Shown: piece by piece, positions 34,219-36,634 of the stretch | Layout: the number at the start of each line of letters is the position of its first letter | Position numbering within the stretch: position 1 is the stretch's first letter | From: Dolomitihabitans soli | GTDB lineage: Bacteria; Actinomycetota; Actinomycetes; Streptosporangiales; Streptosporangiaceae | Length of the DNA stretch: 64,000 nt | Assembly (NCBI RefSeq): GCF_022213955.1 | Contig: NZ_JAKNTW010000019.1 | Location: forward strand, 248,001 to 312,000 | Direction of reading: 5' to 3' | Program-made: the position numbers and the translations under genes | Notes under the pieces: model-generated | Databases searched by the model: none | Told to the model about the DNA's origin: nothing | Seen by the model: only the letters and a program-made list of their open reading frames with translations

Positions 34219-34546
34219 GATCGCCCTCCAGATCAGCGGACGCTCGCCGCATGGGTGTGCGCCCCGTCATGTTCGCCCGCGGCCAGAAGGCGCGGTTTCC
34301 CCCGAACGGAGTTCATTATCCCGAAGCGCGACGCCGGATGACCATGTCCAGCCAAGCCCGACTTATGAGCCCCAGCCGACCGACCGGCGGAACGCTCCGA
34401 CCCGGCCTCCAAGCAAGGACGACGTAGGCCTGGCTGGCGATAACGCGTCACACGCTGACCACCACGTCGTCTTCGAGCACGGTCCCCCGAACAGCGAAGC
34501 GCGATGCTGGACGGCAGGCCCGACTCGCCATCTCCGGCCGCCACCT
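34219..34546. other. Gene-free region between cyclase and rloB-type genes
   Basis: About 330 bases upstream of the cyclase start and downstream of the RloB-type gene. Short open frames exist, but none has a ribosome-binding site or recognisable protein. It must hold the cyclase promoter and probably a terminator for the defence-like cassette; I found no convincing hairpin or promoter pair by eye. Confidence 0.4.
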
Positions 34547-35248
34547 TCAACGAGAGACGATGCCCAGCTCTGCCAGCAGCTTCCAGACCTCGGTCGATGG
34601 GTCACGGGCGAGCACCCCGCAATCCGCGGCGTGACCCTTCGTGGGGGAGCAGCCAAGACTAGGGCAGTTGCCTACCAGCACCCTGGCCAGCTGGGCGGCA
34701 TGCTCCGCACGCCCCTTCAACGCCTGCCGCCGTATCCCGGTCACGTGCTTGCCCCGCTTGTCGAAATCGCGGTAGGCGAGGTGGCTGCCCCGCAGCAGCT
34801 GATGGACATTCGAGCTAGAGCCGCCCTGTGCCCCAGGAGGCCCGGCCACGAAGTGCAGCAAGAGCCACAGATCGAAGGATGGATGGGAGAACGCGACGTT
34901 GACCCCTTGTGCCAGGGCGTCGGCATAGGACTCCTGAACGCGGGTGTGCTGATCCCTGTCGAAGAAGGCCCATACCTGCTCGCGCTTCAGATCGTCGAGC
35001 TCGCTGATCTTCTCCAGTGCCCGAGCGACGACCTCACGCGGTTTGAGGCCTTTCCGCTCCCAGATCACGTGAATCTCGAAAGCGCGAGGCTCCCCCGCGT
35101 ATTCCTCCTCGAGATACTTCAGGTAATCCCGTTCGGTGCTCTCACCTTCCACGACGGCGTAGATCACCTGACGTCCCCTGCCCTCGGTGACGGCGCGTGG
35201 GACACGAGGACCCCCCTTCGGGGCTCCTCTCTTTCTGACCGGGCTCAC
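34547..35248 (-). CDS. rloB: RloB-family protein, Toprim-like putative nuclease
   Basis: A 233-residue protein with the RloB layout. A basic N-terminus (SPVRKRGAPKGGPRVPR) is followed by a Toprim-like strand IYAVVEGESTERDYLKYLEE with the first acidic residue, an acidic D-x-D segment in VWAFFDRDQH, and the family motif HPSFDLWLLLHFV. The C-terminal part is helical and basic. The Toprim-type acidic residues suggest metal-dependent nuclease chemistry. RloB genes were first noted in restriction-modification loci of Campylobacter, and related ATPase/Toprim pairs (OLD, PARIS) are antiphage systems. Its GTG overlaps the ATPase stop by four bases, so the two proteins should act together. Base composition is lower in GC than in the flanks, fitting acquisition by transfer. 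Confidence 0.85.
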   Translation of the reverse strand: MSPVRKRGAPKGGPRVPRAVTEGRGRQVIYAVVEGESTERDYLKYLEEEYAGEPRAFEIHVIWERKGLKPREVVARALEKISELDDLKREQVWAFFDRDQHTRVQESYADALAQGVNVAFSHPSFDLWLLLHFVAGPPGAQGGSSSNVHQLLRGSHLAYRDFDKRGKHVTGIRRQALKGRAEHAAQLARVLVGNCPSLGCSPTKGHAADCGVLARDPSTEVWKLLAELGIVSR

Positions 35249-36480
35249 CCGCCGGCCTCGGTACGGCGCTGCTCCGTCTCCACCGCCATGTCTCTGAGCC
35301 CGATCCGCGGAATCCCGCCATAACGGCCGCGGAGGTATCCGCGTTCCATGCTCTCGTCCGTCCGTACACCCATATCGGTGAGCGGATACAGCCTGGATTC
35401 GCCCGTGCTCATCTTCTCCGTGATCCAGACCTGCTCGCGGTCCAGAGGACGCTCAAGGTGAGCCTTGCTGAGCAGGGTCACATCGTGCCCGGTGAACACC
35501 AGTTGAGCGCCAAGTGGATTGGCGACGGTGTCCTCGAACAGGCGGACGATCTCGGCGACCAGGACGGGATGCAAGCTGGAATCAAGCTCGTCGATCAGCA
35601 GGACGGCCCCGTCGTCGAGCGCTTTGAGCAGGGGGATGAGCAAGGCAAGCCAGGTCAGCGTCCCCAACGACTCCTGGTGGCGGATGTCGAACGCCACCGA
35701 GCCGTTCCTGCCTTGATGGACAAGGGAGACCGCCGGCGCCTCTTCGTCTTTGTCCTCGACCTCGATGCCGGTAATGCCAAGATCTGCTACGGACAGCAGC
35801 CTTTCAACGCGTTTCCGGAAGATCGGATCAAGAAGCTTTCGTCGGCTGTGTGCATCCAGCCGGTGCAGATCGTCACCCGGGCTGACCAGCCACAGATTGT
35901 CGTTGAACCATGAGAACAGTGGCGCCAACTGCTTGACGTGCAGCGATCCCGCAGCGGTGAGGAAGAGCGCGTTGGGTCTGGTGTACTCGATCAGCGGCTT
36001 CTTCGGGCCTTTCAGCCGGTCGCTGGGAAAGCGGAACTGCTCGTTCCTGTCCGCGTCACGATCAAACCAGACCTGACGGCGACGGCTCCCGCGCGGATAG
36101 ACATGAAGCCATTCGGTCTCCACGCGCCTGTCAGACACTTCGAATCCATAGACGTACCGATCGGCCCCGATGACCACGTCGACTTCGAAGAGGGAGGCTT
36201 CCTCCGCCGCCTCGCGATCGACCGCGAACGGTTGTCGCGGAACCCCCTTGGCCCTGGCCCAGTCGGCCACCGAATCCAGGACGGCATGGCGCATCCATCG
36301 CATGGCGCCGAGCAAATTCGTCTTACCCGAGGCGTTGGCTCCGAAGACGGCGGCGACGGGTGAGACGCGGAGGTCGCTGATCGACCGTGCGGCTCGATCG
36401 CCACCTTCAGGCGCGAGCAATGACAGTTCGATCTCTCCACGGAACGAAAGGACGTTTGCGGCCCGAAAACCGACCAGCAT
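35245..36480 (-). CDS. rloA: RloA-like ABC-type ATPase of a two-gene putative defence cassette
   Basis: A 411-residue SMC/OLD-like ATPase. The N-terminal strand MLVGFRAANVLSFRGEIELS (the L-S-F-R-G motif) and Walker A AVFGANASGKTNLLGA lie in the first 65 residues. After a helical insert come the signature-like ESLGTLTWLALLIPLL, Walker B with the catalytic glutamate AVLLIDELDSSLHP (including the D-loop) and the switch histidine QLVFTGHDVTLL. All catalytic elements are intact. ATG 36480 has GGAGAGG upstream. The gene heads a two-gene operon with the RloB-type gene. In comparable systems the ATPase senses a phage product and releases or activates the Toprim partner; that role is inferred here. 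Sampled lines are near 62% GC versus over 70% in neighbouring genes. Confidence 0.88.
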   Translation of the reverse strand: MLVGFRAANVLSFRGEIELSLLAPEGGDRAARSISDLRVSPVAAVFGANASGKTNLLGAMRWMRHAVLDSVADWARAKGVPRQPFAVDREAAEEASLFEVDVVIGADRYVYGFEVSDRRVETEWLHVYPRGSRRRQVWFDRDADRNEQFRFPSDRLKGPKKPLIEYTRPNALFLTAAGSLHVKQLAPLFSWFNDNLWLVSPGDDLHRLDAHSRRKLLDPIFRKRVERLLSVADLGITGIEVEDKDEEAPAVSLVHQGRNGSVAFDIRHQESLGTLTWLALLIPLLKALDDGAVLLIDELDSSLHPVLVAEIVRLFEDTVANPLGAQLVFTGHDVTLLSKAHLERPLDREQVWITEKMSTGESRLYPLTDMGVRTDESMERGYLRGRYGGIPRIGLRDMAVETEQRRTEAGG

Positions 36481-36601
36481 GCCGAGCCTCTCCACAGGTA
36501 GGAAGTCAGCCTCATTCTATGGCCGATGTGAACGAAAACCTGCACAGATGGCCCTGTGATTCGGATTCGATCCTGATCGACGCTCCTACAGGGAAAAGAG
36601 A

Positions 36602-36634
36602 ACACGGCCCGGGCGTGGTTCGCGCGGGCCGTGT
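36602..36634 (-). terminator. Hairpin downstream of purL
   Basis: Perfect 10-bp arms ACACGGCCCG / CGGGCCGTGT with a 13-base loop, ending 11 bases beyond the purL stop. Read on the purL strand it is followed by a pyrimidine-rich TCTCTTTTCC stretch, so an intrinsic terminator is likely. Confidence 0.78.

Follow-up and report, generated by a model that had tools for sequence, protein, structure and literature searches.

We observed that the window (the whole stretch of Dolomitihabitans soli DNA that was analysed, 64,000 nucleotides long) carries a stand-alone gene pair that is intact and mobile and belongs to the known AbiL/RloAB group. The pair is foreign and was horizontally acquired, as concluded from its composition, its absence from this site in relatives and the presence of the same block elsewhere. 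Taken as a whole, the data are probably best explained by an abortive-infection pair of the RloAB (AbiL) type that stands alone, was gained by horizontal transfer and has a Toprim-type nuclease as its RloB; the antiphage role is one that we infer from the literature on the AbiL family (PMC3985639 and PMC10440598). Beyond the first-pass annotation of this DNA, the analysis adds the AbiL identity, the link between relatives and type I restriction, and a Cys/His motif in RloB.

Table 1. Features of the RloA/RloB pair (window positions)
Feature	Position	Strand	Remarks and basis
RloA-like ABC ATPase (AbiLi)	35245..36480	-	411 aa; Pfam AAA_21, PADLOC AbiLi, predicted structure
RloA Walker A, GANASGKTN	36316..36342	-	sequence and alignment
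RloA signature-like ESLGT	35659..35673	-	sequence and alignment
RloA Walker B, LLIDE with catalytic Glu	35587..35601	-	sequence and alignment
RloA switch His (TGHD)	35485..35487	-	sequence and alignment
RloB-family protein (AbiLii)	34547..35248	-	233 aa, GTG start; Pfam RloB, PADLOC AbiLii, predicted structure
RloB VEGESTE, Toprim-like Glu motif after strand 1	35132..35152	-	model and alignment
RloB FDRDQ, Toprim-like DxD at the end of strand 89-96 (model)	34949..34963	-	model and alignment
RloB signature HPSFDLWLLLHF	34850..34885	-	alignment
RloB C195-x4-C200-x5-H206-x3-C210 motif	34619..34666	-	alignment, tree
RloB C-terminal DPSTEVW	34583..34603	-	P217 identical in 71/71 rows
4-nt stop/start overlap of RloA and RloB	35245..35248	-	
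Mobile block (widest extent of DNA similarity to homologous pairs elsewhere)	34546..36492	-	

Both genes were uninterrupted on the minus strand, as the first-pass annotation had claimed for an intact ABC ATPase and an RloB gene. The four-base overlap that it described is real, and when start codons were picked by script, 16 of the 24 relatives from the first family sample showed it too. The ATG of RloA at 36480 agrees with the homologues, the alternative start being the GTG at 36495. The cassette had been placed between purL and cyclase genes. The position was confirmed, but not the plural: purL lies on one side, and on the other there is a single cyclase gene, after which comes a Crp-type regulator. 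Neither a promoter-like site ahead of RloA nor any terminator-like site came up in the promoter and terminator scan. A 14-nt inverted repeat is present at window positions 36602-36634, just past the purL stop, and was not picked up by the terminator scan of the window. It is perhaps the purL terminator, in which case RloAB would have its own promoter.

The GC content of RloA (0.628) and RloB (0.645) was below that of purL (0.713) and the cyclase gene (0.720), so that the lower GC noted earlier for the cassette relative to both flanks was borne out. GC3 was 0.76 for RloA and 0.765 for RloB, and 0.957 for purL, 0.95 for the cyclase gene, 0.924 for the Crp-type gene and 0.847 for purQ. A presence/absence survey between the same flanks, as the first-pass annotation had proposed, was carried out on genomes outside the host genus: 60 relatives were searched with PurL, and in the 13 with the best PurL scores a stretch of about 7 kb, starting at the 3' end of purL, was read. 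RloA/RloB was absent from the site in all 13. Eight of these kept purL and the cyclase gene without the pair (in L064 only the C-terminal part of the cyclase), and in the other five (L061, L065, L066, L071 and L072) neither the cyclase gene nor the pair followed purL. A pair present in all relatives with host-like composition, which the annotation had named as a finding against it, was therefore not what we saw (GC3 of 0.76 against 0.92-0.96).

The purL-cyclase gap is variable, since it holds a collagen-like repeat ORF in L060 (G009) and a Uma2-like ORF in L063 (G015), both assigned by reading the sequence, and since the cyclase match in L068 begins about 3.6 kb past the PurL match. In L068 (G022) this gap contains a long ORF that by the same kind of reading resembles a secreted metalloprotease, where the window has RloAB.

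Long pieces of the mobile block of Table 1 were 70-75% identical at the nucleotide level to L028, L029/L078 (one locus) and L073-L077, where the pair lies at other chromosomal sites. In these loci the similarity was not seen to extend past the block, whose ends lie near the gene ends. Together with GC3 and the 13-relative survey, the block at other sites supports the foreign composition and the patchy, site-specific presence of the pair. A search for insertion marks revealed no tRNA gene in the window, and the flanking repeats were only short two-copy families, none of them convincing. RloB relatives were found on 57 plasmid records (E 1e-3), none covering 80% of the query, and are encoded on 14 IMG/VR contigs; none was found in 50,697 phage records at 1e-3. 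The 3.9-kb mobilizable E. coli plasmid pPSS-04_5 (L153) carries an ATPase and RloB as two of its three listed genes (the gene table being incomplete).

The family assignment was examined with profile libraries. RloA matched AAA_21 in Pfam (E 1e-37), and its best PADLOC model was AbiLi (4.3e-87), followed by AriA (4.6e-36), HEC-01A and others. RloB matched PF13707 (RloB) at 2.2e-22, with 80.7 bits against a cut-off of 31.5, over residues 30-228; this was its sole Pfam match. With these two Pfam values the assignment of the pair is not due to chance, and the RloB-family membership recorded earlier stands. The PADLOC match of RloB was to AbiLii (1.4e-19), the best stretch spanning only model positions 24-85 of 170. 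Neither protein had a match above the cut-offs in NCBIfam, and RloB had no convincing relative among PDB sequences. A match of RloB to the designed SAKe proteins in the PDB (E down to 9.8e-10) came from one stretch of about 26-30 residues and was judged to be chance, as were the other PDB sequence hits.

The ATPase motifs described previously (Walker A, ESLGT, Walker B Glu and switch His) are all present and conserved in a 46-row alignment, where K52, S270, G272, T273, D296 and E297 are invariant, and E269 and H331 are conserved at 90% or more (residue numbers follow the alignment and are one less than in the protein). The predicted structure of RloA (pLDDT 90.4) clearly places the protein among ABC heads of the Rad50/SMC/PtuA/OLD kind, with Rad50/SMC/PtuA-type heads at VIA Z scores of 17.1-20.0 among the 50 matches listed. 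For RloB, the annotated VEGESTE, FDRDQ and HPSFDLWLLLHF motifs were likewise present and conserved across 71 rows, which are the window and 70 of the best 80 of at least 434 relatives (nine loci with a broken or partial RloB are omitted, as is L099, on account of its length). T38, E39, D97, D99, S121, P123, F125, W128 and H132 were identical in 71 of 71 rows, and E34 was present in 69.

A Toprim domain has a conserved Glu after strand 1 and a DxD after strand 3. RloB gave a confident predicted structure (pLDDT 90.2, from 71 sequences) with strands at residues 26-32, 56-61 and 89-96; the Glu motif (E34) follows the first and the DxD (D97, D99) follows strand 89-96, which is the Toprim arrangement. 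A Foldseek search of this model against the PDB gave nothing under E 0.001 (the best, at 9.6e-3, was not a Toprim protein), and no protein named Toprim was among the 50 matches listed. In VIA, the top match was a designed nanoparticle chain (Z 7.5), with lumazine synthases at 7.4 and below, a Z of about 7.5 being a level that the tool rates as common; retron Eco2, described in part of the literature as bearing a Toprim effector, was at rank 42 with a Z of 4.2. Against viral models, the sole match under 0.001 was an RloB-like phage protein (E 1.3e-7), and a phage DnaG Toprim came sixth (E 0.066).

We also compared the RloB profile with OLD Toprim domains, obtained from 22 of 30 fetched loci and divided by eye into groups of 16 and six before the comparison. 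The group of 16 gave a score of 24.06 (E 0.0058), with EG aligned on EG and DxD on DxD, and none of 200 column-permuted controls was as high (maximum 20.3); this score of 24 is not decisive, since permuted controls of other profile pairs reached 25-28. The group of six (OLD_TOPRIM) gave 12.3, and all 22 pooled gave 16.4. Nine AriB-like (DUF4435) domains gave 15.27, inside the 150 controls (reaching 25), and this is a weak test, as the control pair AriB-OLD (19.6) was also inside its own controls. In PMC10440598, HHpred is reported to connect RloB with the Toprim domain of OLD. Considering the motif placement, the OLD profile match and the reported HHpred link against the null fold searches, RloB is likely to be a Toprim-type protein, on evidence that is moderate, mixed and partly negative. 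The Toprim-like character assigned by the first-pass annotation is backed in part, by the motif placement, one weak OLD profile match and the reported HHpred link, but not by the PDB fold search, the second OLD group or the AriB-like domains.

The C-terminal region of the window's RloB contains three Cys and a His, the mark of a proposed zinc-binding clade. C195, C200 and C210 occurred together in 46 of the 71 RloBs, and the other 25 were gapped at C195 and C200. H206 was not tied to the cysteines, since it is present in 67 of 71. Between C200 and H206 the window's RloB has 5 residues, and many other RloBs have about 25-30. A single branch (support 100/97) separates the 46 motif-bearing RloBs from the rest, which amounts to one change on a midpoint-rooted tree that was built with the motif columns included and in which one clade counts as one event. 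Among ten RloBs outside the alignment, L076, L099 and L110 matched the motif by a script pattern. The natural guess from these residues is that C195/C200/H206/C210 is a candidate metal site.

To see how widely the pair occurs, RloB was searched in a family sample, where a match at E 1e-3 was present in 40 of 150 genomes, counting that of the window. RloAB/AbiL is therefore common near the host, yet we found no paper on its target or trigger. The window's genome had one RloB match. An RloA-like ATPase was directly upstream of RloB in 24 of 24 other family-sample loci. A scan of genome contigs gave at least 434 RloB relatives, and in the best 80 of these, a set that overlaps with the family sample (L003 and L078, for example, are one locus), an RloA relative was upstream in 79; L128 had none at the threshold. 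In a phylum sample, PF13707 was present in 15 of 396 genomes (own included), against 1 of 396 for DUF4435. The dN/dS of the window genes against four Nonomuraea copies was 0.13-0.15 for RloA and 0.10-0.26 for RloB, values that are rough because a simple count method was used and dS was high (1.2-2.75).

A broken frame was seen for RloB in 6 of 80 and for RloA in 1 of 79 loci (p = 0.06; best 80 of at least 434, mostly draft genomes). This excess of RloB breakage fits a costly effector, but does not show one, and we do not rely on it. A count based on motifs (29 RloA and 15 RloB of 79 failing, the opposite trend) was rejected, as its patterns failed on full-length open RloA. In L002 (G138) and L003 (G145), the nearest family-sample pairs, RloB was frame-broken and the RloA frame was open.

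The neighbours of the relatives established that RloAB is found repeatedly with type I restriction genes attached as well as without them. HsdM was found within about 150 nt after RloB in 32 of the best 80 of at least 434 loci (at least 870 aligned residues), and an HsdS match came next in 31 of the 32 (the exception being L143). Four of these HsdM proteins were examined in Pfam and had N6_Mtase and HsdM_N. HSDR_N was downstream, on the same strand and within 15 kb, in 27 of the 32, as placed by genome and position (the contig agrees for 20 of the 27, and the contig number only for the other seven). The HsdR misses in L086, L087, L132, L135 and L143 say little, since only 4.3-6.3 kb of contig remains past RloB, and in the other loci HsdR is about 4-7 kb away. 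With HSDR_N downstream in 27 of 32, the idea that RloAB replaces HsdR in hybrid operons was ruled out. A linkage to type I restriction has already been noted for RloB (in part of PMC10440598) and for rlo genes generally (in part of PMC2610378). HsdM and HsdS queries gave no match in the 64-kb window at 1e-10, and none in the surrounding DNA examined of the nearest kin (L073-L078). As 32 of 80 relatives are HsdM-linked and the window is without HsdM/HsdS, the window pair is a stand-alone form. On contig C36 of the window's genome, HsdM_N and HSDR_N matches are about 4 kb apart, so a type I partner in trans is possible.

In L084 and L090, HsdM matches of about 120 residues follow RloB, perhaps relics of restriction loss with RloAB kept. 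The gene mnmA (tRNA 2-thiouridylase) ends 450 nt or less upstream of RloA in 21 of the best 80 of at least 434 loci, with or without restriction genes. These mnmA-adjacent pairs are mostly from Streptomyces (e.g. L082, L086, L094, L100 and L106), and the place is perhaps an insertion hotspot. At this mnmA site, L081, L118, L119 and L121 have the pair but no HsdM.

Among the closest known systems is AbiL of L. lactis (RloA/RloB family), which has an AAA_21-type ATPase with RloB and supplied the best PADLOC models for both genes; the window copy differs in being chromosomal and actinomycete, and in the Cys-Cys-His-Cys motif of its RloB. The RloAB-HsdM-HsdS operons found in Streptomyces and Nocardia, mostly with HsdR further downstream, are joined to type I restriction, and the window pair is not. 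The 22 motif-bearing members of the 32 HsdM-linked relatives (best 80 of at least 434) are 48-53% identical to the window in RloA and 35-41% in RloB, and 21 of the 22 are in the tree, all within the motif clade (L099 was left out). The other ten form a sister group without the motif (RloA 44-50%, RloB 27-37%).

PARIS (AriA/AriB) resembles the pair in having an ABC ATPase and a separate Toprim-type effector, and RloA matches the AriA model as given above. However, AriB is a DUF4435 protein (PF14491) and the window's effector belongs to RloB (PF13707), a separate Pfam family, with no profile match found between the two. The likeness to PARIS that had been pointed out thus holds for the layout, but not for the effector family. 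OLD and Gabija GajA share an ABC ATPase of like fold, probable Toprim chemistry and the weak RloB-OLD profile match; they are one fused protein, whereas ATPase and RloB are two separate ORFs in the window. PrrC and RloC, too, are ABC ATPase proteins that occur either with type I restriction loci or detached from them. They differ in being a single protein with an anticodon nuclease of the HEPN class (as described in part of PMC12409363). RloC is reported to be zinc-responsive (in part of PMC2610378); its zinc motif sits in the ATPase, whereas the Cys/His motif of the window sits in the nuclease-like partner.

In PARIS, AriA is reported to hold AriB and to let go of it once phage proteins such as Ocr are sensed, after which AriB cuts host tRNA (PMC12409363). 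Like AriA, RloA would form an ATP-dependent ABC assembly that senses infection and keeps RloB inactive. When triggered, RloB may act as a metal-dependent Toprim-type nuclease via E34, T38/E39, D97 and D99, and its action would halt growth ahead of phage release. By analogy with AriB, the best single guess for its target would be an RNA such as tRNA. As many kin head type I restriction-modification operons, the pair might plausibly be triggered by a phage anti-restriction factor or by DNA damage, in the manner of PrrC and RloC.

AbiLii of F. nucleatum was toxic in E. coli and AbiLi gave no neutralisation, and the AbiL proteins of L. lactis showed no toxicity, according to the accessible text of PMC3985639. 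A C. algidicarnis RloB/AAA pair is presented under toxicity neutralisation assays in PMC10440598, so that the two papers disagree on the ATPase as antitoxin. In a search that reached a minority of the subscription papers, we found phage tests neither for this pair nor for its actinomycete relatives, and no experimental study of an actinomycete RloAB, and the accessible part of a census of actinobacterial defence (PMC10482375) yielded no passage on AbiL or RloB.

Other explanations of the pair were also considered. RloB might be a DNase of the OLD/Gabija kind, acting on invading or host DNA and not as an RNase. This is possible but doubtful: the only RloB profile match is to a group of OLD Toprim domains and the ATPase is of the Rad50/SMC/OLD/PtuA type, but that match bears on fold and not on substrate, and an ATPase with a separate Toprim protein is the PARIS layout, in which AriB is reported to cut tRNA (PMC12409363, in part). 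The frequent HsdM and HsdR neighbours (32 of the best 80 of at least 434 loci, and 27 of the 32), the HsdM_N and HSDR_N matches on another contig of the window's genome, and the precedent of PrrC/RloC (PMC2610378, in part) would fit a restriction guard that a type I complex silences in trans and whose inhibition fires it. We regard this as unlikely, as there is no HsdM/HsdS in the window or beside L073-L078 in the DNA examined, the mnmA site also holds pairs without HsdM, and a tiny plasmid carries the pair.

A selfish toxin-antitoxin or plasmid-maintenance unit, with phage protection incidental, is quite unlikely. Such behaviour of an RloB/AAA pair is described in the accessible part of PMC10440598, and relatives are carried on plasmids; against this, the dN/dS of both genes is low in chromosomal copies, and AbiLi did not neutralise in the work of Dy et al. 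(PMC3985639, in part). That the pair lies between purL and the cyclase gene might suggest a resident housekeeping pair in cAMP or purine metabolism, but this is extremely improbable and already contradicted by the absence of the pair there in 13 of 13 relatives, its foreign GC3 and its other sites elsewhere. There is, finally, only a slim chance that the actinomycete RloBs are a distinct Toprim-type clade with a gained metal site (a zinc- or redox-switched toxin), and that RloAB is a portable type I guard, working alone or in trans. C195-C200-H206-C210 would then be a structural or regulatory metal site beside the conserved C-terminal His/DPST element, and the arrangement, if true, would be a second, unrelated invention of that of PrrC/RloC.

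The stand-alone pair and its restriction-linked sisters provide matched material for asking whether RloAB guards restriction, and the Cys/His clade offers residues that can easily be mutated to study regulation. Specialists could find two things of value here, namely the collection of pairs with and without linked restriction genes, and the clade with the Cys/His motif. We also observed a single actinobacterial protein (L186) that combines an N-terminal part, ABC-ATPase-like by reading, with DUF4435, and which is PARIS-like.
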